Positions 9,459-20,825 of a DNA stretch of 20,825 bases are shown here, in pieces (within the stretch, counting starts at the first letter, position 1; each line of letters begins with the position of its first letter). The stretch lies in IMG/VR virus record IMGVR_UViG_3300037993_000129, positions 1 through 20,825 of that record; one strand, written 5' to 3'. The position numbers and the translations under genes are program-made. The notes under the pieces were generated by a model. That model ran no database searches. It was given only the letters and a program-made list of their open reading frames with translations, and had not been told where the DNA came from. Source of the DNA: a virus.

Positions 9459-9721
9459 CCACGTCTCCTGAATGTATTGGTGCTGCGGCGGCCGCTCTTA
9501 GTGGTGCCGGACACCATCTTAGTCTCCGGGTAGCTGCCTCTGATCTTATCGTGAAAGTATGATCCCGGCGAACCGGTCTGGAACAGCGTATCCGCTACAG
9601 TCTGTGGAACACGGCTGTACGCGTAGACAGCACCATTCACAAACTGTATAGCAAGGGTCTGCGCTTCCGGGTCGTAATCGCCCGCGTTCAGATGCCGGGA
9701 CTGGAGGCCGCGCCACGCCAT
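9455..9721 (-). CDS. KTSC domain protein, 88 aa
   Basis: The first 65 residues match the KTSC pattern. SRHLNAGDYDPEAQTLAIQF leads into NGAVYAYSRVPQTVADTLF, then SPGSYFHDKIRGSYPE. In the family the closing segment usually reads like F-N-x-x-I-R-x-x-Y. KTSC domains occur alone or fused to lysyl-tRNA synthetase-like or other proteins, and are common in phages; the molecular role is not settled. The C-terminal 20 residues are basic and Ser/Thr-rich. The start follows ACAGGCGTAAGTGC, a usable ribosome site, and the stop overlaps the 49-aa gene as ATGA. Confidence 0.88.
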   Translation of the reverse strand: MAWRGLQSRHLNAGDYDPEAQTLAIQFVNGAVYAYSRVPQTVADTLFQTGSPGSYFHDKIRGSYPETKMVSGTTKSGRRSTNTFRRRG

Positions 9722-9725
9722 GCAC

Positions 9726-10082
9726 TTACGCCTGTATAGTCAGCACCTGCGACATCAGTGTATCGGCATCGACGCGACCGCCGAATCCGGCGATTACGAA
9801 GGCCAGATAGTTTGCCGCGTTATTGCCGTCCACGCCGGGCGGGGCTTCCGTATAAATGGCCTGCTTCAGCGTGTCACCGCGCGCCGCCCACAGTTGCGCC
9901 TGACGTTCGGCGTCCGCGAGACCTTCAACGTCGTCGGGTATCTCGCCTATGGCGTCCGGGTCGCCCGGATGTTGCGAATGCGGAGAGTGTCGCAGATCGA
10001 GCGGGTTATGGTCGCGCGACGGAAGGCTTCCCGGTATAAAGAAGCCTTCCTCCGTCGCGCACAGCTTTACAAACAGCGTCAT
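9726..10082 (-). CDS. hypothetical phage protein, 118 aa
   Basis: The start overlaps the stop of the 112-aa gene as ATGA. Residues about 20-45 are rich in His, Pro and Asp (SRDHNPLDLRHSPHSQHPGD) and probably disordered or metal-binding. Residues 50-118 look helical (GLADAERQAQLWAARGDTL, then ANYLAFVIAGFGGRVDAD). The 5' part of the coding sequence contains a very stable inverted repeat (10014-10060). The function is unknown. Confidence 0.7.
   Translation of the reverse strand: MTLFVKLCATEEGFFIPGSLPSRDHNPLDLRHSPHSQHPGDPDAIGEIPDDVEGLADAERQAQLWAARGDTLKQAIYTEAPPGVDGNNAANYLAFVIAGFGGRVDADTLMSQVLTIQA
10014..10060. repeat. 17-bp inverted repeat inside a coding sequence
   Basis: Bases 10014-10030 (GCGCGACGGAAGGCTTC) are complementary to 10041-10060 except for a 3-nt insertion, with a 10-nt loop. 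In the minus-strand mRNA it lies at codons 8-23 of the 118-aa gene and hides an AGGAGG-like sequence (GGAGGAAGG) in one arm. It lacks a T tract, so it is not a standard terminator. Confidence 0.8.
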
Positions 10083-10417
10083 GCGGGTGCCGGAGTTGCG
10101 GCCTTGACCTGCGCAGCCTGCAATGCGTTAAGCGCCGCCACGATCTCGTCGATGGTAGTCGAGAGAGTCGCGGCAGGCACGGCCTGCGCAGCAGGCACAG
10201 TCGCGTTGACAACAGTGGTCACGACCGACTTCTTCGCCGCGCCGGCCGAAGCGACACCCGCGAACAGACCTTCTACGGATACAACCGTATTAAAGATCGT
10301 GTTGAACGCGGGTCCGTATACCGGAATGGCCGCAATGACCGGTTCGAGCGGCTGAACGACGGCGGTCACCTTACCGGAGACGCCGCCGATGGATTTGAGG
10401 ACGCTCAGGAAGCTCAT
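10079..10417 (-). CDS. hypothetical small Ala/Val-rich phage protein, 112 aa
   Basis: The protein is rich in Ala, Val and Thr with hydrophobic stretches at about residues 19-55 (VVQPLEPVIAAIPVYGPAFN, then FNTVVSVEGLFAGVAS). The Pro and Gly content makes these borderline as membrane helices. The C-terminal third is an Ala-rich helix (TIDEIVAALNALQAAQVKAA). Similar small Ala/Val-rich proteins in phages are seen near the head and lysis genes, where some are labelled holin-like, but no diagnostic feature is present. It follows the 153-aa gene after 2 nt and overlaps the 118-aa gene as ATGA. Confidence 0.72.
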   Translation of the reverse strand: MSFLSVLKSIGGVSGKVTAVVQPLEPVIAAIPVYGPAFNTIFNTVVSVEGLFAGVASAGAAKKSVVTTVVNATVPAAQAVPAATLSTTIDEIVAALNALQAAQVKAATPAPA

Positions 10418-10969: not shown

Positions 10970-11149
10970 ATGCAGCAAATATATCTGAAGCGCGACGAAC
11001 TGGTGCCGCAGATCAAAGGACAAGACCCGGAAGGTTACATCTCCACCGACGGAGGTTTCATCGCCGTGGAAACGAAAACGACGGAGCCGACCCGGACCAT
11101 GACAGAAGCCACGCCACCAGGATCAGGACCGCGATCACCACAAGGATGA
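10970..11149 (+). CDS. possible 59-aa plus-strand protein within the minus-strand cluster
   Basis: This frame runs opposite to its neighbours, from ATG 10970 to TGA 11149. The first 35 residues (MQQIYLKRDELVPQIKGQDP, then EGYISTDGGFIAVE) read like an ordinary protein with codon use resembling genes in the window, and lie in a stretch that otherwise holds only a minus-strand promoter. The second half is antisense to the end of the 67-aa membrane-protein gene and is low-complexity. No ribosome site is visible. It may be a small antisense gene, the remnant of one, or a chance frame. Confidence 0.35.
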   Translation: MQQIYLKRDELVPQIKGQDPEGYISTDGGFIAVETKTTEPTRTMTEATPPGSGPRSPQG

Positions 11150-11261
11150 TGTACACGATACGCCGGATCGGGTCGGGGATGCCTGGGATCTGGGACAGTA
11201 CCCAGAAGATCAGGCCGACGATAATCAGGAATGCGAGGATCGTAATGGCTGTGCTAATCAT
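11058..11261 (-). CDS. two-helix membrane protein, holin candidate, 67 aa
   Basis: Two hydrophobic helices, about residues 5-24 (AITILAFLIIVGLIFWVLSQ) and 34-54 (RIVYIILVVIAVLILVAWLL), flank a short loop with Pro and Arg (IPGIPDPIRR). The C-terminus is short and basic (PRR). This is the layout of small two-helix phage and bacterial membrane proteins, some of which act as holins that open the inner membrane at lysis. It is placed 21 nt after the large terminase. No endolysin was found in the window, so the lysis role is only suggested. The ribosome site is poor (ACAGGC too near the ATG). Confidence 0.75.
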   Translation of the reverse strand: MISTAITILAFLIIVGLIFWVLSQIPGIPDPIRRIVYIILVVIAVLILVAWLLSWSGSAPSFSFPRR

Positions 11262-11282
11262 GCCTGTATGGTACCGCTTTCG

Positions 11283-13511
11283 CTATTTGACCGGGTCGCC
11301 TGTTATGCCGGTCGGCACTTCCTGCGACCCGTACGCCCACTGCGCGTATTGGCGTTCGCGGTGCGGCTTCTGCATCGATTCGCCGTTCGCGCCCAGCAGC
11401 AGCGACTGGTCATAGGCGGCGTGCGCCGGGTTGCGGCCCGAGTACGCCATGATCTTGCTGGCGCGCCAGTAATTCACGTCCCACGAGTAGAAGCTCTTGA
11501 GCACGAACCCGAGCGCCATGATCCGGTCGTCTTTGCCGCCGTACCCGGCGCGGAGCTGCTGTTCCAGTTCGTCGCCTTCCAGACTTTGCATTTCCTTGAC
11601 GAAGAACGGAGAGCAGACTTCGATCTCGCCGTCGCGCAGCGCCTTAACGATCATCTCGATCATGGCGGCGCGAAAGTAGAAGTTGGTAAACACGCCCATC
11701 TTTTGCGCTTTAGACAGGTCGGGTCGCCGGTCGTCTATCTTGCGGTCGTTCCACATGTGGAAGTTAGTCCAGTTCATAAGACGCAGGATGTTCTGGACCA
11801 CGTCGCCTTTGCCTTTGCACTCGATACACATACGGGGCTGCTGGGTCTGGCCGTGGCGGCCCTTGACGCTGTACCATGTGCCTATGGCTAACAGGAAAGG
11901 CCACACGTCGAGCGCGCTAAGATGACCACTGGCGAATTCGAGGACCTGCTTGGTCGGTCCTTCGAGGGAGTATTTTCGGACGCCTTCGATACAAGTCGAA
12001 TCTTTGTCGATGCCGTCCCCCGTGTCGCAGCCGAATCCATACTCGAAACCCTCTATAGGCGGTTCCCAAATATAGATTTTGTCCACACTGCCCTTCTTGC
12101 TGTCGCTTTCAAGCGACCAGCCGCCGAACTTGAGCGGCACCAGCTCGAACGGTATCTTGACCCCGCCGCCTGCGTCCGCGTCTATCCTGATCGGCGGCAG
12201 GTCGTGGTTGATTAATATGTCGGACGGCTGAATGCGCGCCGGCACGAATTCCAAAGGGCCACGAAGGCCGAAGACGCCCCATAGAGGCTGCGAATGAGTA
12301 TTTGTACGGTAAAAGTTAATTGTGTCCACGTCGAACACGGTGATATTGCTGGATTGGAACGCTTCGTCGTCGTTGGCGGGCATCTCCTGAAAGAATTTGT
12401 TAAGTTTGTTTTCGGCCATATAGCGCCCGCGCTCACACTGGTAGAACCACAGTTGTTCGAGCGACAGATGCCAATTGGACCCCATGTGTTTCGACAGGTA
12501 TGGAGTAGCTCTCACGTACTCCTCGGCCATTTTTGCGTGGTTAGTAACCCAATCCGGTATCCAGGATAAGTAGTCGTCCGGTACCGGACTGCGTTTGATA
12601 TCGGCTTCCTTAGGATACAGGCCACCTGTAAACCACGGAAAGAACGCGGGGCGCAACTTGCCTTTGCGCAAAGGCCACTCGGACTTAGCCGTTTCCCACT
12701 TACGATGCCACTCGTTATTGATGCCTTCGGCTGTACCTTCAAGCGCAAGGAAGCTACGCGGCGATGAGTGCATAGCACGTAGCAGCGACGAGTCAACCAG
12801 ATTCTCAAGGTTATCGAACTCGGCAACCTCAGAAAGATGAGCTACGTTAGGGGAGTCTCCACGAGCCATACCAGTAGACTGTTGGCCATGTTCCATAGTG
12901 ATTGCTGATCCATTAAAGAACTCCAGCAGCTTTCCGGCCTGGTCTACTTTTCCGAGCTTGCCGGGCTGTGATGAGCCTGGTTGCATCCAGTAAGGCATAC
13001 GAACCAGTACGAACGAAATCAGCTTGAACAGTTTGAGGGTCTTTTTGTCCGTCGAGCTTGCCAAATATGCATTGATGTTGCTGTCGAAGACGACTCTGTG
13101 TAGCAAGATCAGCGTAATAATACGAGAAATTCCCAACTGTCTTGCTTTCAGTATTATCAGGAATATCGCGATCTCGTCGTCTTCCATTTCGGCGATCAGG
13201 TCGAGGAATATCTTTTGCGATTGCCATAGTTCCATCCTTACAGTTCGGTTGTCTGTGTCTTTGATCCAGACGGCGCGTTCGACCCAGTACCAGAAGTCGA
13301 AGGAACAGAGAATGCGCTGGGTCCTGATCCACAACCTCTCTTCTTCGGTAAGCGTGTCCTGCCAGCCTAACAGGGCGCGTCCCTGTGTGTCGTATACGGA
13401 GCGTCCGTCCGGGGTGACGCGGCGAGTAGGAAGCAGGCGCCCGGACTCCTGGTCCTTTTCGACTAAGGTGTCAAGGTGAGAGACGGCGCGGGCGAATTCG
13501 AGGCGCGACAC
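11283..13511 (-). CDS. terL: terminase large subunit (ATPase and nuclease)
   Basis: This DNA-packaging motor protein docks on the portal, pumps DNA using ATP and cuts the concatemer. Residues from the GTG at 13511: KARQLGISR at 122-130 is the variant Walker A loop typical of terminases; VAHLSEVAEF at 223-232 is Walker B with the catalytic Glu; FFQEMPANDDEAFQSS near 373-388 is the conserved link after the ATPase domain. GCDTGDGIDKD near 494-504 opens the RNase H-like nuclease, and GGKDDRIMALG near the C-terminus supplies a further acidic metal ligand. The coding character continues upstream of 13511 (SRRIIDRDTNLWLAHPANRG) with no ATG, GTG or TTG before the next in-frame stop. A CTG at 13592, 8 nt after AAGGA, is the best candidate for the true start and would give 769 aa. 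Confidence 0.93.
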   Translation of the reverse strand: MSRLEFARAVSHLDTLVEKDQESGRLLPTRRVTPDGRSVYDTQGRALLGWQDTLTEEERLWIRTQRILCSFDFWYWVERAVWIKDTDNRTVRMELWQSQKIFLDLIAEMEDDEIAIFLIILKARQLGISRIITLILLHRVVFDSNINAYLASSTDKKTLKLFKLISFVLVRMPYWMQPGSSQPGKLGKVDQAGKLLEFFNGSAITMEHGQQSTGMARGDSPNVAHLSEVAEFDNLENLVDSSLLRAMHSSPRSFLALEGTAEGINNEWHRKWETAKSEWPLRKGKLRPAFFPWFTGGLYPKEADIKRSPVPDDYLSWIPDWVTNHAKMAEEYVRATPYLSKHMGSNWHLSLEQLWFYQCERGRYMAENKLNKFFQEMPANDDEAFQSSNITVFDVDTINFYRTNTHSQPLWGVFGLRGPLEFVPARIQPSDILINHDLPPIRIDADAGGGVKIPFELVPLKFGGWSLESDSKKGSVDKIYIWEPPIEGFEYGFGCDTGDGIDKDSTCIEGVRKYSLEGPTKQVLEFASGHLSALDVWPFLLAIGTWYSVKGRHGQTQQPRMCIECKGKGDVVQNILRLMNWTNFHMWNDRKIDDRRPDLSKAQKMGVFTNFYFRAAMIEMIVKALRDGEIEVCSPFFVKEMQSLEGDELEQQLRAGYGGKDDRIMALGFVLKSFYSWDVNYWRASKIMAYSGRNPAHAAYDQSLLLGANGESMQKPHRERQYAQWAYGSQEVPTGITGDPVK

Positions 13512-15226: not shown

Positions 15227-15796
15227 TTATGTACGCTTCGCATCAGCCTTCGGCTGCTGCTTCGCTTCCAACGACGCGGCGGGCGCGGCCTCGCTTGTCG
15301 CGGCAGGCTGCGTCACGATCTGTTCAAGCGCTTCGAGCTTGGCGCGGAATTCATTCAACACCGCTTCGAACGACTGCTGCGAACGCGCTACCTGAATCGC
15401 ACGGCTGATCGCCGTTGTCACGTCCGCTTCGAGATTCAGGAACGCGGCGGGCGAAAACAGGACCTGTCCGATGTTGCTCTGGATCACGTACTGTTCGCGC
15501 CCGGCAGCGGCGTCGCGCGTCCCGAGGTCGCGGATCGCGTAACCGTGTACGAATGCGTTGCCGGCCGATGCGTCCCAGACTAAGGCATCGATCTCGCCGT
15601 TTGGCTCGTACTGCGCCAATACTACGGCGGGCGCGAAGTATTCCTGCTGATTCGGCGAGCGCGAGTGCGCGGCCATACGTAACAGGACCAGGGAGCCGGT
15701 TTCGAGAGTCTGCGGCGATTCGAGCGTGCGAGGCGCGATGGCGCGGTCCACGATAGCGTGCGCGATCTGTTCGGAAGTGCCTGTAGTAGCGGTCAT
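15227..15796 (-). CDS. hypothetical phage protein, 189 aa
   Basis: A ribosome site (GAAAGGAACGAA) precedes the ATG at 15796 and an extended -10 promoter lies just upstream. Residues about 33-118 look like a beta-rich domain (SLVLLRMAAHSRSPNQQEYF, then APAVVLAQYEPNGEIDALVW and YAIRDLG). Residues 120-165 form a helix (SRAIQVARSQQSFEAVLNEF, then RAKLEALEQIV) that may make a coiled coil, followed by an Ala/Pro/Lys-rich flexible tail. The function is unknown. It appears to start the group that leads to the terminase genes. Confidence 0.75.
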   Translation of the reverse strand: MTATTGTSEQIAHAIVDRAIAPRTLESPQTLETGSLVLLRMAAHSRSPNQQEYFAPAVVLAQYEPNGEIDALVWDASAGNAFVHGYAIRDLGTRDAAAGREQYVIQSNIGQVLFSPAAFLNLEADVTTAISRAIQVARSQQSFEAVLNEFRAKLEALEQIVTQPAATSEAAPAASLEAKQQPKADAKRT

Positions 15797-15824: not shown

Positions 15825-16031
15825 TTATTGTAGCAAAAAATTACGCGAAAAAGTTACTGAAAAACCTTTACGGCGCGCCGCGCGTGTGCCGGATGCAACA
15901 GGCGTACCGGAGACGGCGGCGACATCGGCGGGGTTCCACCCTGGCGTACCTGGTGCGGCAACAGTAATGTGTTTGCCGCCGCAGGATACGAGCAGTAAAG
16001 CGATGAGTGGTAAAAACGCTTTCATTTTCAT
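15825..16031 (-). CDS. small lipoprotein, 68 aa
   Basis: The start used is the ATG at 16031, which follows GAGGATGAAACC; the longer frame upstream reads through a structured hairpin. The N-terminus (MKMKAFLPLIALLLVSCGGK) is a lipoprotein signal with a lipobox ending at Cys17, so the mature protein would carry a lipid anchor and be sorted to the inner or outer membrane. The mature part is about 50 residues, rich in Gly, Pro, Thr and Ala, with a basic patch (TRAARRKGFS). Small phage lipoproteins can be outer-membrane spanins or exclusion proteins. The 50-aa one-helix protein two genes upstream could be a partner, but this is speculation. Confidence 0.75.
   Translation of the reverse strand: MKMKAFLPLIALLLVSCGGKHITVAAPGTPGWNPADVAAVSGTPVASGTRAARRKGFSVTFSRNFLLQ
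15827..15835 (-). promoter_or_regulatory. extended -10 promoter candidate
   Basis: On the minus strand TGCTACAAT carries the TGn extension of a -10 element and lies in an AT-rich stretch, 31 nt upstream of the ATG of the 189-aa gene. The -35 region (AACTTT at 17 nt) is poor, as is usual for extended -10 promoters. It overlaps the stop codon of the lipoprotein gene. Confidence 0.45.
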
Positions 16032-16043
16032 GGTTTCATCCTC

Positions 16044-16089
16044 TATATGCGTCGTCCGACCTTTCGGTCGGTACGTCGCGTGCCGCGAC
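16044..16089 (+). repeat. TATA-hairpin element copy 1
   Basis: Read on the plus strand: CTCTATAT, arm GCGTCGT (16049-16055), stem CCGACC (16056-16061), loop TTTC, stem GGTCGG (16066-16071), suffix TACGTCGCG (16072-16080). A second hairpin, GTCGCG-TGC-CGCGAC (16075-16089), follows directly. It lies between two minus-strand genes, so relative to them it is inverted compared with the other copies. Confidence 0.75.
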
Positions 16090-16099
16090 GACACTGCGA

Positions 16100-16999
16100 C
16101 TACGATCCCCTGTGGCCGTTGCCGAACGACAGGCGCGGCCTGCCGTCTGTGTATAGCCCGCCCGCGCCGCGCCCAGGTCGCATCAGGCCGCGCGGCCCCG
16201 CGTCGAGCACGCCGTTCACACTCTCATACGCCTTACCTTTCTGGTCGCCCAGCGTCTTTGCGCTCGCGACGTGCGTGCCGGCGCTGACACTGATCCCGGC
16301 GTGCTGCACCGCTACGCCGTCCATGCGGACTTCGATGGACCCGTTGTCCACGGCGATATGCTGATGCGCGGGCGTATGGTCCACGGTCTCGGTCGAGAAC
16401 ACGTAGCCTTCAGCCACGTCGCCGCGGCGGCCGCCTGTTGTGTCGGGCGCGGCGGTGGCGGGTGCCGCCGTAAAGACACGTTTCGCTTCCGCCTGTACAT
16501 CCGCGTCCACGTTCGGGATGTCCGCAAGGAACAGGTGAGACCCTGTGTCGCGCGATCCGTAACCGGGGCGCGGCACCGCCAACCCGTGCTGTTCGCGGAC
16601 CTGATCGGGCGGGAGGCCACCAGGGACCGGGGCGGCATTGACAGTAGCCGAGAAGTCGTGTTCCGTGTGTCTTACTTCGACCTTTCGGTCGAAGTGCGAC
16701 GTATCGCGGCTACTATCGGGTATCTCGTTAGTCAGCTTGACGCCGCCGCTGATGTCGAGATGCTCGGGCGGGCTGCTCACTGGTACGGACCCGCCGATGT
16801 ACATATCGACGCCGACCTGAACGCGCAGGTCCAGCACGGCCATAGGCAGCGTAAGGTGCGGCTGCATCAGGTAATGGCCTTTCAGGAGCTGGCGGAACCA
16901 GTCCGTCAGGATCTCGACCGCTTCGTCGCCGTTCAGGTCGTTATAGGTAAGGGACGCGGGGAGGCGCTGCGGCAGGGACGGGCGCGTGGATGGTGTCAT
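16100..16999 (-). CDS. hypothetical phage protein, 299 aa
   Basis: The ATG at 16999 (MTPSTRPSLPQRLPASLTYN) is preferred to the longest frame, because it overlaps the stop of the 50-aa membrane gene as ATGA. Residues 20-75 look folded (DEAVEILTDWFRQLLKGHYL, then LPMAVLDLRVQVGVDMYIGG). The remainder is beta-rich with repeated short strands (SIEVRMDGVAVQHAGISVSA, then GTHVASAKTLGD) and ends in a Gly/Arg-rich tail. This suits a virion surface or fibre-associated protein, but no family was recognised. A perfect 9-bp stem with a TTTC loop lies inside the gene at 16674-16695. Confidence 0.72.
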   Translation of the reverse strand: MTPSTRPSLPQRLPASLTYNDLNGDEAVEILTDWFRQLLKGHYLMQPHLTLPMAVLDLRVQVGVDMYIGGSVPVSSPPEHLDISGGVKLTNEIPDSSRDTSHFDRKVEVRHTEHDFSATVNAAPVPGGLPPDQVREQHGLAVPRPGYGSRDTGSHLFLADIPNVDADVQAEAKRVFTAAPATAAPDTTGGRRGDVAEGYVFSTETVDHTPAHQHIAVDNGSIEVRMDGVAVQHAGISVSAGTHVASAKTLGDQKGKAYESVNGVLDAGPRGLMRPGRGAGGLYTDGRPRLSFGNGHRGS

Positions 17000-17148
17000 G
17001 TGTGAAGGATACCGTACATGGCGACGGTAAAGGACCCCACGAACCCGCCGAACCAGAACCATGACCATAAGCGCAGGCGGTCGCGCTCACGGACTACGCG
17101 CTGAAACTGGCGCTCCAGGTACATCTGCTTCGACTCGGCTTCAATCAT
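16996..17148 (-). CDS. one-helix membrane protein, 50 aa
   Basis: The ATG at 17148 follows ACAGGAGACGTTTC, a strong ribosome site. The product has a charged, probably helical N-terminus (MIEAESKQMYLERQFQRVVR) followed by a membrane segment rich in Trp, Phe and Gly (LWSWFWFGGFVGSFTVAMYG) and a short tail. It would sit in the inner membrane with the charged part in the cytoplasm. It is the first gene of the leftward transcript and overlaps the next gene as ATGA. Function unknown. Confidence 0.75.
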   Translation of the reverse strand: MIEAESKQMYLERQFQRVVRERDRLRLWSWFWFGGFVGSFTVAMYGILHT

Positions 17149-17178
17149 GAAACGTCTCCTGTATGCTCGTTTCGTTTA

Positions 17179-17309
17179 GTGGCACGACCGTTCAGACCTT
17201 ACGCAGGTCTAACGCCCTCGCGAGGGAAGCACCGGATCAGACCGCTGAACGTCACGTTAACGCCTTGCGTACCCCGGTTTATGCGATCCGCTCTGTTCAG
17301 TCGTGCCAC
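17179..17309 (-). ncRNA. structured leader RNA in the divergent control region
   Basis: A perfect 10-bp outer stem (17179-17188 with 17300-17309, GTGGCACGAC) closes a fully nested set of helices: AGACCT/AGGTCT (17194-17199, 17205-17210), CCCT/AGGG (17215-17226), and CGGATC/GATCCG (17233-17238, 17285-17290), which encloses AACG/CGTT (17248-17258) and ACGC/GCGT (17260-17270). The minus promoter at 17318-17347 predicts a start near 17311, so the RNA would begin at this outer stem and form the leader of the 50-aa gene. An alternative pairing exists: the segment 17245-17250 (CTGAAC on the plus strand) can pair with GTTCAG copies at 17190 or 17295. It resembles no known riboswitch or tRNA. Confidence 0.55.
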
Positions 17310-17317
17310 ACGCAATG

Positions 17318-17347
17318 AATGTACCCTGTACAAACCGGGTGTGTCAA
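17318..17347 (-). promoter_or_regulatory. leftward promoter for the virion genes
   Basis: On the minus strand a perfect TTGACA (17347-17342), an 18-nt spacer and TACATT (17323-17318, 4 of 6) are present. The spacer length equals that of the promoter at 10916-10945. The start site falls at about 17311. Confidence 0.6.
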
Positions 17348-17356
17348 GTCTAAAAT
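17327..17356 (+). promoter_or_regulatory. rightward promoter for a leaderless mRNA
   Basis: TGTACA (17327-17332, 4 of 6), an 18-nt spacer and TAAAAT (17351-17356, 5 of 6) precede the ATG at 17363 by only 6 nt. Transcription would therefore start at or very near the A of the ATG. It overlaps the leftward promoter, so the two should compete. Confidence 0.5.
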
Positions 17357-17362
17357 GGTGAT

Positions 17363-17803
17363 ATGCAGACTACAATTGTTGGCCGCACGGTCGAATATCA
17401 GGTAAATGAGAAGACAGGAGAGTTCAGCGCCAGTTACAACGGCGAGAAGTACGCACATATGACGCTTGCCGGACTGAAGGGCATACTGGAGCGCCAACTT
17501 AAAAAGAAGCCGCTCGACATCGGCGTGATCGAGATCAACAGCAACTACGGCGATAATATGACGATCAGGCACGGTCGTATCATGGGTGTGCATTCGGGTA
17601 ATAACAACCTGATGGTGCAGTGGCGTGGCGACACAGCATTAGAGCAGTACAAAAGCCATTATAGTGACGCCCTGCTGAAGCGCGACACAGACCTGAAGAA
17701 GCTGCAACATTTGTTCGACAAGATGAAGGCAGCGAGCGACGCCTACAACGAGTTCGTACAAGAAAGCAGATTTGACAGGTCGGTTGTAAAGGAGCAGGAA
17801 TGA
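17363..17803 (+). CDS. hypothetical early phage protein, 146 aa
   Basis: This is the first plus-strand gene after the switch region. The ATG at 17363 lies about 7 nt after a -10 element and has no ribosome site, which implies a leaderless transcript. The N-terminal half looks alpha/beta (TIVGRTVEYQVNEKTGEFSA, then LAGLKGILERQLKKKPLDIG). The C-terminal 60 residues are a charged coiled coil (KRDTDLKKLQHLFDKMKAAS). It has no membrane segment or zinc motif and no recognised family. Its place as first rightward gene suggests an early regulatory or host-takeover role. Confidence 0.78.
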   Translation: MQTTIVGRTVEYQVNEKTGEFSASYNGEKYAHMTLAGLKGILERQLKKKPLDIGVIEINSNYGDNMTIRHGRIMGVHSGNNNLMVQWRGDTALEQYKSHYSDALLKRDTDLKKLQHLFDKMKAASDAYNEFVQESRFDRSVVKEQE

Positions 17804-17880
17804 ACGCTCTATATGCTCGCAACGACTCTTCGAGTCCTTGCTCGCGCTCCACGTCGTCGCGCGCGTCGTTCACGCCATGA
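17800..17880 (+). CDS. 26-aa leader ORF coupling two early genes
   Basis: The ATG at 17800 overlaps the stop of the 146-aa gene as ATGA and has a strong ribosome site (AAAGGAGCAGGA). The ORF ends with TGA at 17880, overlapping the ATG of the 338-aa gene as ATGA. The product is Ser/Arg-rich (MNALYARNDSSSPCSRSTSS) and unlikely to fold. As the next gene lacks a ribosome site, the ORF most likely carries ribosomes to it. A hairpin (17820-17840) lies in its middle. Confidence 0.55.
   Translation: MNALYARNDSSSPCSRSTSSRASFTP
17807..17846 (+). repeat. TATA-hairpin element, diverged copy
   Basis: It has the same prefix as copy 1 (CTCTATATGC, 17807-17816), then a hairpin GACTC-TTC-GAGTC (17824-17836) extended by CAA/TTG across a C-C mismatch, and ends in CTCGCG. 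The arm and suffix differ from the four main copies. It lies inside the 26-aa ORF. A similar arrangement with prefix CGCTCTATAGCTC, stem ACGCC/GGCGT and suffix GCTCGCG occurs at 18396-18436 inside the next gene. Confidence 0.4.
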
Positions 17881-18893
17881 ACCCCTACCCGGAACGTATC
17901 TCGGAGCTTCACGATCACTTACACGCCGTCTGGTCGCAGCGCGACACGCAGGCGACGGAGATCCTGCTCGCGGCGCTGCTGCCCGCATCGCTGACCCGGA
18001 TGCGCCGCCCGTGGCTGATACTCGAAACCGATCACCTGTCGCGCGACACATCCGGTGCATGGTTCAGCTTGGGCATGCCCGAACTCGTACAGGCACGGTC
18101 GCTCGCGGTGCCCAGATCCGTCAGGGCGCGCGACTGCCGCCGGTGGTGCGATAACGTACTCGCCGAGGACCCGTTCGACCAACCGGGCGTGTTCGTGGAC
18201 GCCGAGTGGCGCACCCTGCCCAACAGGTCCAGGAGCGCCACGGTGATAGCCAGCTACTATGCGCTGCTCGCGCGATGCGTGCATGTACGAGTGTCACAGC
18301 CAAAGAGCGACATCGGCGTGCGGACCATGAATGCGCGTGAGTCGGACAGGCTGGAACTGGCGAGGTTGACGCGACGGGTGCTTGATAACGCGCATCGCTC
18401 TATAGCTCACGGCACGCCCCAGGGCGTCCCGCTCGCGGCCGCATCAACCGGCGCCGCCACGCCGCAAGCGCTCTATTACTGGTCGGAACTCGTGCAGAAA
18501 CTCGCGCCCGCGCAGCACGATTGGGAGTGTCTGACAGGCAGTGTAGCCGCTGTCGCGCACGGGATCGCGACGCTCTATAACGATGGCCGCGCGCCTGCGT
18601 ATGATGCCGCGGAGCGTGTGTTGCGCGACACCGTGCCTTACGCTACGGCGCGTCTCATACTGGATGCGTCGCACGGGCCGGTCGCGGCGCGCATGGCTCA
18701 TATACAGAGCGGTGGCGTTATAGGGAGCGGCGAGCGCGTGACGGTGGAGCTGAAGCGGCTGGAGCGCGAAGGCGTGTTGACGAAACGTCGCGGCCACCAT
18801 AAGGTGCTGGCGGGCGCGGTCGCGGAGCGGTATAAAGTCGCGCACCAGGACTGGGCGACGCTGCTCGACAGGGACGAAAGGATACTGGTGTAA
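17877..18893 (+). CDS. hypothetical protein with C-terminal winged-helix-like segment, 338 aa
   Basis: The ATG at 17877 is chosen because it overlaps the leader ORF stop as ATGA; a TTG at 17838 would add 13 residues but has no ribosome site. The protein is mostly helical and rich in Ala, Arg and Asp (ISELHDHLHAVWSQRDTQAT; RLELARLTRRVLDNAHRSIA). Near residues 278-310, SGGVIGSGERVTVELKRLER followed by EGVLTKRRGHHKVL resembles the recognition helix and wing of a winged-helix DNA-binding domain. Phage replication or regulatory proteins often carry such a domain, but no catalytic motif was seen, so a primase or helicase call is not justified. The codon use is very GC-rich. Confidence 0.75.
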   Translation: MNPYPERISELHDHLHAVWSQRDTQATEILLAALLPASLTRMRRPWLILETDHLSRDTSGAWFSLGMPELVQARSLAVPRSVRARDCRRWCDNVLAEDPFDQPGVFVDAEWRTLPNRSRSATVIASYYALLARCVHVRVSQPKSDIGVRTMNARESDRLELARLTRRVLDNAHRSIAHGTPQGVPLAAASTGAATPQALYYWSELVQKLAPAQHDWECLTGSVAAVAHGIATLYNDGRAPAYDAAERVLRDTVPYATARLILDASHGPVAARMAHIQSGGVIGSGERVTVELKRLEREGVLTKRRGHHKVLAGAVAERYKVAHQDWATLLDRDERILV

Positions 18894-18896
18894 CGA

Positions 18897-19130
18897 ATGA
18901 TTATATGGTGCAGAGGACCGGAGCAGGTCGGGTCGGTGGTGCGACGGCCTGTGATTAACGACAGTAGTTTGGAAGCCGTCGATCACCCATTCGCCATACT
19001 GCGCGAGGCCACGTACGATGAATACCTGCAACAGGCAATCGACGCAGGTATAGATACCAGCGGACCAAACTGGGGACGCGAAAACTTCGCGCGCCACAGA
19101 GCACTGTTCTACGAAGTCGCAACGGATTAA
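18897..19130 (+). CDS. hypothetical phage protein, 77 aa
   Basis: It starts 3 nt after the stop of the 338-aa gene, with only a weak ribosome site, so it may be coupled. The N-terminus is MIIWCRGPEQVGSVVRRPVI and the middle reads HPFAILREATYDEYLQQAID. It is acidic and small with no membrane segment. The final part (GRENFARHRALFYEVATD) looks helical and aromatic. The family was not recognised. A TATA-hairpin element begins right after its stop. Confidence 0.72.
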   Translation: MIIWCRGPEQVGSVVRRPVINDSSLEAVDHPFAILREATYDEYLQQAIDAGIDTSGPNWGRENFARHRALFYEVATD

Positions 19131-19132
19131 GC

Positions 19133-19171
19133 TATATAAGCGTCGTCTTCGCTCTCGCGAAGGACGCCGCA
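19133..19171 (+). repeat. TATA-hairpin element copy 2
   Basis: TATATAA, arm GCGTCGT (19140-19146), stem CTTCGC (19147-19152), loop TCTC, stem GCGAAG (19157-19162), suffix GACGCCGCA (19163-19171). GCGTC and GACGC also pair, extending the stem across a 2-nt bulge. An alternative second hairpin, CGCCG-CAGT-CGGCG (19165-19178), follows. It lies between the 77-aa gene and the cupin gene. Confidence 0.8.
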
Positions 19172-19209
19172 GTCGGCGACACGAATACGTAAGGTCAGGA
19201 GTACGTTAC

Positions 19210-19572
19210 ATGCCGGTCATTAAAGAAGTCCAGAAACTCTGGGGCACGGAACTGTGGCACCACAACGACACGGACTACTGTATGAAGACGCTGGTGTTGC
19301 GGCACGGCGCACAGTCGTCGCTGCACTACCACAAGGTGAAGCGCGAGACGTTTCTGGTGGTGTACGGGATCGTCTCGCTTCAGGTCGGACCTAACTGGCG
19401 CAACAAGCGCCAAATGCGCCCCGGAGACAGTTTCACAATAGAGCCGGGCGTGCCGCATAGATTCAGAGTCGCAAGCGGGTGCGGCGACGAGGCCATTGTT
19501 GTGGAGGCATCCACCACGCACGACGACGCGGACGTATACAGACTGGAAGAGTCTAAAGTCATTTCCTTATAA
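19210..19572 (+). CDS. cupin, sugar-isomerase-like, 120 aa
   Basis: A single cupin barrel with both motifs intact. Motif 1, G33-x5-H39-x-H41-x4-E46-x6-G53, is perfect; motif 2 is PGDSFTIEPGVPHRF with His83. His39, His41, Glu46 and His83 would hold a divalent metal. The opening (VQKLWGTELWHHNDTDYCMK) and the closing HDDADVYRLEESK resemble the cupin family related to the C-terminal part of bifunctional mannose-6-phosphate isomerase/GDP-mannose pyrophosphorylase and to cupins in sugar-nucleotide clusters. The exact substrate cannot be read from the sequence. It has a strong ribosome site (AGGAGTACGTTAC). It looks like a host-derived metabolic gene, flanked on both sides by the TATA-hairpin element. 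Confidence 0.88.
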   Translation: MPVIKEVQKLWGTELWHHNDTDYCMKTLVLRHGAQSSLHYHKVKRETFLVVYGIVSLQVGPNWRNKRQMRPGDSFTIEPGVPHRFRVASGCGDEAIVVEASTTHDDADVYRLEESKVISL

Positions 19573-19604
19573 GCTCCGTCCTGCGCAGGCGCAGGTACGT
19601 CGCG
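19568..19604 (+). repeat. TATA-hairpin element copy 3
   Basis: TATAA (which includes the cupin stop codon), arm GCTCCGT (19573-19579), stem CCTGCG (19580-19585), loop CAGG, stem CGCAGG (19590-19595), suffix TACGTCGCG (19596-19604), which is identical to that of copy 1. It sits directly at the end of the cupin gene. Confidence 0.75.
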
Positions 19605-19843
19605 GTCGTCAATGCCGGTCGCCACCACAACGACACTAAATTAAATTGAACTTAAAAAGTCAATAATTTTTGACGTGTCGAAAGTCATCGGCGTAAGGCT
19701 CGATGCAGCGCGCAATCCGTGACCTCAACCCCTACACAAAGGCGCGGCGCACCAGTTTACAGGGTGCCCGGCGCACACACTACAGTCGTCGCATGCCGAT
19801 AAGAGACGTTATCGTGAGTGTGACGCGCGTCGCTCGTATCCTT

Positions 19844-19881
19844 TATATAGCGTCGTCTGACCTCACGGTCAGGACGCCGCG
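19844..19881 (+). repeat. TATA-hairpin element copy 4
   Basis: TATATA, arm GCGTCGT (19850-19856), stem CTGACC (19857-19862), loop TCAC, stem GGTCAG (19867-19872), suffix GACGCCGCG (19873-19881). GCGTC pairs with GACGC as in copy 2. No gene starts immediately after it. Confidence 0.8.
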
Positions 19882-20127
19882 GTACACGCCAGGCGCACGC
19901 ATGGAGCTGCGCACGTCCATACGGCGCTATACGTGTCGCTGGCTTAGCCGAGCCGAGCTGTCACACGCTATCGTGCCAGACATATCCACATATCCTGATA
20001 CGTAGATGTACAGGCACGTGTCCCCGTCCCCATGCGGCTATAGACTACCACACTACTATACTGATAGGCCACGTATACCAGATAGACTTCGTAGTTTGTT
20101 GCATATATACGTACGTCTGTACCCCTT

Positions 20128-20144
20128 GACGAGCTTCGCTCGTC
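20128..20144. repeat. perfect 7-bp hairpin with TTC loop
   Basis: GACGAGC (20128-20134) and GCTCGTC (20138-20144) pair around TTC. There is no T tract, so terminator function is doubtful. It resembles the dispersed hairpins in shape but lacks their arm and suffix. Confidence 0.6.
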
Positions 20145-20217
20145 GTCGTGGGCCATCCGTCCGTGCGTTGCTGCCGCGAGCAAGGCAACAAACACGCGAT
20201 AACACGCATATTAATTG

Positions 20218-20246
20218 TTGACTTGCTACACCCGATATACGATCAT
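20218..20246 (+). promoter_or_regulatory. sigma-70-like promoter candidate
   Basis: TTGACT (5 of 6), a 17-nt spacer and GATCAT (4 of 6) lie about 36 nt upstream of the ATG of the 131-aa gene. No other promoter-like sequence of this quality is seen just ahead of that gene. Confidence 0.4.
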
Positions 20247-20281
20247 ACGAGTGTACCTATACGGTACTGGAGTCAATACAA

Positions 20282-20677
20282 ATGCTCACACCTTACGGAC
20301 CTGGTAAGTTCTCTCACCTTATAGACTCGGCCATATACGACGTATCGCTTGACGGCGCATGCGTCGATGAAGCCGGCGACGTCTCAGGACCTTGCGGCTG
20401 GAATGGCCTGATTAACAGCAGTGGCGACACTGACGGACTGCTCCACATGCTCGAACGCGACGTAACAGAGACTCTGTCACTTGAAGACAAAGCATTTCTG
20501 CGTCAACACTTCGCTTGCATCCTGTCTGAAGACAATGACGGATTCGTCAGTGTCGAGTACTTCCCGACGTTCACGCGGGCGCGCGCCGCGTTCGACCAAA
20601 TAGAGCGTGAGATAGAGAGCTGCCCGTACGATGACGAAGACATTGACGACGGTGGCCATGAAGAGGTATGCGAATGA
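20282..20677 (+). CDS. hypothetical acidic phage protein, 131 aa
   Basis: The ATG at 20282 follows TGGAGTCAATACAA, a usable ribosome site, and a promoter candidate. The protein is acidic, with a Gly/Cys/Asp-rich middle (DGACVDEAGDVSGPCGWNGL), a helical part (DKAFLRQHFACILSEDNDGF), an aromatic strand (FVSVEYFPTFTRARAAFDQI) and a very acidic C-terminus (YDDEDIDDGGHEEV). The acidic tail might mimic DNA or bind a basic partner. The family was not recognised. It follows the long non-coding stretch and appears to begin another rightward group. Confidence 0.75.
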   Translation: MLTPYGPGKFSHLIDSAIYDVSLDGACVDEAGDVSGPCGWNGLINSSGDTDGLLHMLERDVTETLSLEDKAFLRQHFACILSEDNDGFVSVEYFPTFTRARAAFDQIEREIESCPYDDEDIDDGGHEEVCE

Positions 20678-20683
20678 GCCAAC

Positions 20684-20764
20684 ATGGACCAGTCGCCAGA
20701 GCTGCAGGCTAAACACCTCGCAGAGGCAGCGCAGTACCGCAGCCTGCAGCGTCAAACTCTCTGA
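20684..20764 (+). CDS. possible 26-aa peptide
   Basis: MDQSPELQAKHLAEAAQYRS is followed by LQRQTL and TGA. It reads as an amphipathic helix with codon use like its neighbours. No ribosome site lies at the right distance. A different ATG (20674) overlapping the 131-aa stop has AGAGG but gives only 12 codons. One of these may be translated, or neither. Confidence 0.3.
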   Translation: MDQSPELQAKHLAEAAQYRSLQRQTL

Positions 20765-20775
20765 CAGTGTAGGGA

Positions 20776-20803
20776 CCGTTCCACGGACCCTGGCACGGAA
20801 CGG
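20776..20803. repeat. 7-bp inverted repeat near the window end
   Basis: CCGTTCC (20776-20782) and GGAACGG (20797-20803) are complementary around a 14-nt loop. No T tract follows within the window, so a terminator cannot be claimed. Confidence 0.5.
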
Positions 20804-20825
20804 CGCCCCGTGCACGCGTACCTAG

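Follow-up and report, generated by a model that had tools for sequence, protein, structure and literature searches.

Dispersed hairpins with covarying stems and a preferred strand in a lineage of tailed phages

A fragment of a tailed soil phage and its relatives, none of them cultured, carry a dispersed family of short hairpins whose functionality is well supported. The strand that folds well is the minus strand, opposite a TATA prefix, and DNA is moderately supported over RNA as the working form. Within pattern scans of IMG/VR and GTDB genomes, the family is found in this phage lineage only. Tentatively, and by analogy with known systems, we regard the elements as phage-private hairpins resembling REPs that a protein may recognise as folded single-stranded DNA.

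The element and its distribution

The window, i.e., the whole 20.8-kb stretch of DNA analysed, is an entire IMG/VR virus record. It encodes structural genes on the minus strand up to ~17.1 kb (terminase large subunit, a portal-size ORF and an S74-type tail protein), with plus-strand genes to their right. The terminases of G001 (52 kb) and G004 (24 kb) are 96% identical in protein to that of the window, followed by those of G002, G003, G005 and G006 (75-78%) and by others near 43%. G001 is syntenic with the window at about 83% nucleotide identity, and G004 aligns with it exactly as G001 does. All the relatives used are metagenomic, and some of their records are incomplete. Among isolates, Tunturiibacter phage Tunturi_1 has the nearest terminase (29% identity), which suggests an acidobacterial host, although this is a guess; a terminase search of GTDB genomes found no prophages of the lineage. 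In G001, a tyrosine recombinase gene (11122-12360) is in two ORFs ~270 nt apart, matching the front and the back of the integrase profile, respectively, and no Rfam intron was found in it. A pentapeptide-repeat-like protein is encoded in G005 at 9534-10100.

Four strict copies are present in the window. The initial annotation had described them as arms GCGTCGT (GCTCCGT in one) and a suffix KACGYCGCR, with 4-nt loops, a TATA prefix on the plus strand and the 6-bp stems CCGACC, CTTCGC, CCTGCG and CTGACC facing their exact complements, and all of this is found in the four copies. The 6-bp stem with its 4-nt loop is, however, not isolated: the hairpin has ~12 bp overall, and all four copies share the arms, a 1x1 mismatch and a 1-nt bulge besides stems that differ in sequence, each still paired. 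Read on the minus strand, the strict form is 5'-GCG-R-CGT-M-[6 bp, mostly GNNA loop]-ACG-A-CGC-WTAYAR-3'. A looser form reads GCGA-[stem, mostly GNNA or GNA loop]-GAGC, in most cases with a TATA-like tail behind it; the tail is lacking in some members (G005 45429, G005 47208 and G002 26956). Lower arms, mismatch, bulge and tail are thus the conserved parts, and the upper stem varies freely while remaining paired.

All the window members fold on the minus strand. Copy 1 (16043-16079, loop GAAA) lies between minus-strand genes, and its AT tail extends into the ribosome-binding region of the small gene 15825-16033. Copy 2 (19133-19170, loop GAGA) is directly past the stop of the plus gene 18897-19130, copy 3 (19567-19603, loop CCTG, outer arm less paired) overlaps the stop of the cupin gene 19210-19572, and copy 4 (19844-19880, loop GTGA) is in noncoding DNA. 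Two looser relatives that had been placed at 17807 and 18396 fit the structure, at 17810-17845 and 18401-18436. The former, with outer arms GCGA...GAGC and a GAA loop, directly follows the stop of the plus gene 17363-17803; the latter lies inside the plus ORF 17877-18893, in a linker of variable length. A related-looking 7-bp hairpin with a GAA triloop, at 20128-20144, is without a TATA tail, and its membership is uncertain.

Several of these sites have counterparts in G001. Those of copies 2 and 4, at 27412-27442 and 28139-28169 (the latter in aligned noncoding DNA), are strict; 27412 and copy 2 both lie between the 338-aa gene and the cupin gene, the preceding small gene being different. In place of copy 3, G001 has a looser form with other arms, also paired (27858-27888). 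The counterpart of the member at 18401 is at 26830-26861, and the position aligned to 20128 (28456) holds a hairpin with another stem and a GGA loop. Further looser members occur in G001, G002, G003 and G005.

Other hairpins were seen nearby. A possible member at 15228-15260, with an inner GAA loop, lies at the 3' end of the minus gene 15227-15796, and a related hairpin ends the counterpart of this gene in G005 (45653-45708). A 7-bp hairpin at 16074-16090 (minus loop GCA) overlaps the suffix of copy 1, and therefore both cannot form together. A 9-bp hairpin with a minus GAAA loop (16674-16695), without arms or TATA, is inside the minus gene 16100-17068.

The elements are more frequent than in shuffled sequence. 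With up to three mismatches, GCGTCGT-N16-KACGYCGC matches the window 20 times, a number that none of 100 shuffles attains (mean 6.75); without mismatches, it matches copies 1, 2 and 4 only. A structural scan required a TATA-like prefix, GC...GC ends, paired arms and at least 5 bp of stem. Applied to the window and five relatives, it gave about a dozen distinct sites where block shuffles gave 0.7, and a scan for GCGA-stem-GAGC allowing G-U gave 11 sites against 1.3 in shuffles. A laxer scan over 625 kb returned 19 rows against 8.4 in shuffles, such that its isolated sites cannot be trusted. Outside the cluster, the scans of G001 give only a weak candidate at 23815. A covariance model, as proposed in the initial annotation, was searched over the 625 kb and scored clearly for the six strict copies only, four in the window and two in G001.

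The initial annotation knew of no described family of this form, and this still holds: no Rfam match exceeded the gathering score, and none was found in the annotated phage collection or in the pattern scans of IMG/VR and GTDB. A blastn search of positions 15850-20825 against annotated phages found nothing. The scans of viral contigs were bound to the strict and looser patterns. With the strict pattern (one listing of at least 80 stretches), nearly all IMG/VR matches listed beyond the relatives lack a paired stem; with the looser ones, a matching stem was found in G001/G004 only, another match (L231) being inside a coding gene. GTDB genomes, scanned with the strict pattern, gave four matches, only one of them with a paired stem. 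This one, in a contig of Sanguibacter hominis (2225-2262), has TATA and a 5-bp stem and is probably due to chance.

Covariation, folding strand and pair types

Covariation was assessed on the six strict copies (four in the window, two in G001) across 12 pairs. Nearly all paired cells are standard (71 of 72, 98.6%). Five pairs have changed on both sides, with 13 double-change cells and not a single one-sided change among the six copies. The covariation score was reached by no shuffle out of 500, and the signal is lost when the partner is shifted by 1-3 columns; these controls remove shared descent only incompletely. Selection for pairing, as claimed in the initial annotation, is thus supported above shuffled sequence. 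Between G001 and the window, two of the six stem pairs have changed on both sides at 19133 and one of six at 19844; in the latter comparison (G001 28139 with copy 4), the loop and the bulge base also differ and both arms are identical. Quasi-palindrome repair is another possible way of maintaining pairing, but the conserved mismatch and bulge, which it should equally have erased, are still present.

The predicted DNA folding energy is lower on the strand opposite TATA in all 17 elements, and RNA folding also prefers this strand in most copies. On this strand, the loops of five of the six strict copies are GAAA, GAGA, GTGA, GAAA and GACA, and those of looser members are mostly of the form G...A (GAA, GTA, GGAA, GATA, GTCAA). 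The exceptions are 19567 (CCTG), G001 27858 (CCTGC), G002 26956 and the in-gene members at 18401 and G001 26830. The outer arms of the looser form, GC-GA...GA-GC, make tandem G.A. In G005, a long hairpin with the outer step doubled (GCGAGCGAG...CGAGCGAGC) is just behind the counterpart of the 338-aa gene. Such tandem G.A, like GNRA loops, is favourable in RNA as well.

The pair types differ from those of background hairpins. The 13 noncoding elements have 157 Watson-Crick pairs and no G-U; in background hairpins folded from these genomes under the same RNA rules, G-U amounts to 12.4%. The difference is in part selection, since the first scans demanded Watson-Crick stems, and the fair sample is the six of the 13 elements (69 pairs) that come from a G-U-tolerant scan. 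A G-U pair is present in two of the three in-gene elements and in the partly coding one. The strand lock and the absence of G-U pairs favour single-stranded DNA as the working form.

Orientation and genomic surroundings

The late-gene strand carries every element of the window, G001, G002 and G005, and the sole exception to this orientation is the clear element of G003. Some are sense to the neighbouring genes (16043 in the window; 26048 in G001; 45429, 45653 and 47208 in G005), others are antisense or in noncoding DNA, both in the window (17810, 18401, 19133, 19567, 19844) and in the relatives (26830, 27412, 27858 and 28139 in G001; 48922 in G005; 26956 in G002). A cis-acting mRNA element would be expected to follow gene direction. 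As the initial annotation noted, the four copies keep one orientation although copy 1 lies among minus genes; the other copies are antisense to plus genes or in noncoding DNA.

The elements form a cluster of ~5 kb around noncoding DNA that includes an AT-rich tract (~19636-19690). The noncoding stretch at 19690-19820, strongly conserved with G001, carries the palindrome CGATAAGAGACGTTATCG (19797-19814), and similar palindromes occur in G002 (26717) and G006 (26395). This region is possibly an origin, an operator or an attachment site; GC skew gave no clear origin. Because the elements cluster beside this AT-rich noncoding region, a part in replication, recombination or DNA processing is suggested.

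Three of the four blocks that diverge between the window and G001 contain an element (~15858-16100, 17367-17876 and 18894-19209), but this may only reflect that both sit between genes. The 243-bp block 15858-16100, comprising a small minus lipoprotein-like gene and copy 1, is missing from G001, whose sequence runs through the site without interruption; a short TAC is common to the junctions. A large structured leader (GTGGCACGAC...GTCGTGCCAC) with an MFE z-score of -2.4 spans 17150-17315, and its place in G001 is taken by a long looser element that precedes a minus gene. Next to it, at 17318-17356, are divergent promoter matches of the sigma-70 type, in a stretch that the relative shares at 92% identity; matches of this kind are weak evidence (four found, 2.4 expected).

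Candidate roles and comparison with known systems

In the protein-recognition reading that we tentatively favour, the minus (late-gene) strand would fold once single-stranded, e.g., at a replication fork, in a recombination intermediate or by supercoil extrusion. A protein would then read the lower arm with its irregularity and the AT-rich tail, the upper stem acting as a spacer, in a manner like that of TnpA-REP on the REP hairpins of E. coli. TnpA-REP reads REPs strand-specifically through tag and bulge, the upper half being non-specific (PMC8266576). The two-sided stem changes, the G...A loops and lower folding energy on the strand opposite TATA, the lack of G-U pairs, the excess of looser forms over shuffles and an orientation independent of gene direction argue for this reading; the absence of PF01797, the orientation in G003 and the members without a tail or a G...A loop argue against it. 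The search for this Y1/HUH transposase profile found no match in six phage records, its control being positive. A protein-binding site, among the roles first suggested, is compatible with these observations.

Only the manner of recognition is compared here, and membership in REPs is not claimed because there is no Y1 transposase in the phage records, no host family with the strict pattern, and the copies diverge in step. Like REPs, the elements are imperfect palindromes of 20-40 nt whose stem changes are complementary; they have a conserved irregularity in the lower stem and a single unpaired tag at one side, and they often follow genes directly and sometimes lie within them. Unlike them, they have a TATA-like tag instead of GTAG or CGTC (PMC3733652), are few and in one lineage rather than many per bacterial genome, and are mostly same-strand single units instead of paired dimers. 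The phages also lack a transposase, although a cognate tyrosine transposase is known for GTAG REPs only. The elements share with integron attC a one-strand hairpin with an extrahelical base and a variable but paired inner part, but they are much shorter and without the attC core sequences, and the variable blocks do not have an element at each border. Dispersed inverted repeats private to a phage group are also known from mycobacteriophages, as the ESAS of cluster K and the 17-bp palindromes of cluster O, with functions that are not known (PMC3203893, PMC4351075). In those repeats, a variable spacer separates conserved arms, whereas here the inner stem varies yet is paired; ESAS are moreover tied to start sites.

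A more specific version of single-strand reading is speculative. A phage protein not yet described would read the strand-locked hairpins by their shape, comprising the lower arm with its mismatch and bulge, the GNNA loop and the TATA tail, and the hairpins would serve in replication or recombination as signals without a parallel among described phage elements.

The main rival, which we consider unlikely, takes the elements as RNA hairpins on leftward (late-strand) transcripts, i.e., as sites of processing, stability or protein binding placed in late-gene leaders for some and in antisense transcripts elsewhere. Several loops are GNRA closed by C-G, which is typical of RNA, copy 1 and G001 26048-26101 are in 5' leaders of minus genes directly before ribosome-binding regions, and the late-gene strand holds every member except that of G003. 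Yet no G-U occurs among the 157 noncoding pairs, many elements are antisense to plus genes, and the sole leftward sigma-70-like match (17347, weak evidence) is to the left of five elements, so that a transcript from it would miss them.

It is improbable that the elements are miniature mobile palindromes of the REP kind, copied by a host single-strand transposase and functionless for the phage. Their size, the tag beside an imperfect palindrome and the sites past stops and in variable linkers do resemble REPs (PMC3733652), and the linker holding 18401 is ~10 residues longer than in G003 and G006. The copies at corresponding sites of two phages have, however, diverged by compensatory change, which implies that they are old and constrained. 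In addition, no empty site of the element alone was found between the window and G001, and the strict pattern revealed no matching family in host genomes. The small mobile repeat considered in the initial annotation is thus matched in REP-like form but not by any element-only insertion.

Terminators or 3'-end stabilising hairpins of plus-strand genes are still less probable. Several elements are within 10 nt of a plus-gene stop codon, but the T-run after the hairpin is absent on both strands, a terminator scan omits the elements, the favourable loops are on the other strand, and copy 1 and two members of G005 lie among minus genes.

Promoters of a phage RNA polymerase, T7-like or N4-like (with a hairpin promoter), are very improbable, despite the TATA adjoining the hairpin. 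The N4 promoter hairpins accept any paired bases in the stem and have a stable G.A loop (PMC4496689); they are also alike in being small DNA hairpins with conserved and freely changing paired positions. The phage elements differ in a longer stem with mismatch and bulge and in the reversed polarity of the loop relative to the AT-rich side: in our reading of the template-strand layout in PMC4496689, the strand with the GNA loop carries the start site 5' of the hairpin, and here the AT-rich side is 3'. The single-subunit polymerase gene suggested by the initial annotation was searched with PF00940, which has no match in eight relatives (some records incomplete) and does find that of T7; the longest ORF of G001 has at most 1182 aa, against ~3500 residues for the N4 virion RNA polymerase. 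The conserved ~23-bp duplex over the start site of T7-like promoters is absent as well, only TATA and the hairpin arms being conserved, with nothing conserved upstream of TATA or downstream of the hairpin. Together with the sigma-70-like matches at 17318-17356, this speaks against the promoter first proposed.

Other candidates were rejected: a -10 box in the tail (no conserved -35 seen by eye), cassettes (variable gene blocks often contain an element, yet none at their left border), Racr mimics of CRISPR repeats (repeat-like sequence absent), a TIGR array (copies dispersed, not tandem; PF01798, the Nop domain of Tas, absent with a positive control) and retron or DGR hairpins (RVT_1 not found).

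Single-stranded DNA as a working form is, to our knowledge, rare outside integrons, IS200/605-type transposons, REPs and N4 promoters. When corresponding sites of two phages differ by compensatory change, this is good evidence that a short noncoding hairpin is functional. If a phage protein reads these hairpins, they would give a new handle on replication or gene exchange in little-known phages, possibly of Acidobacteriota.
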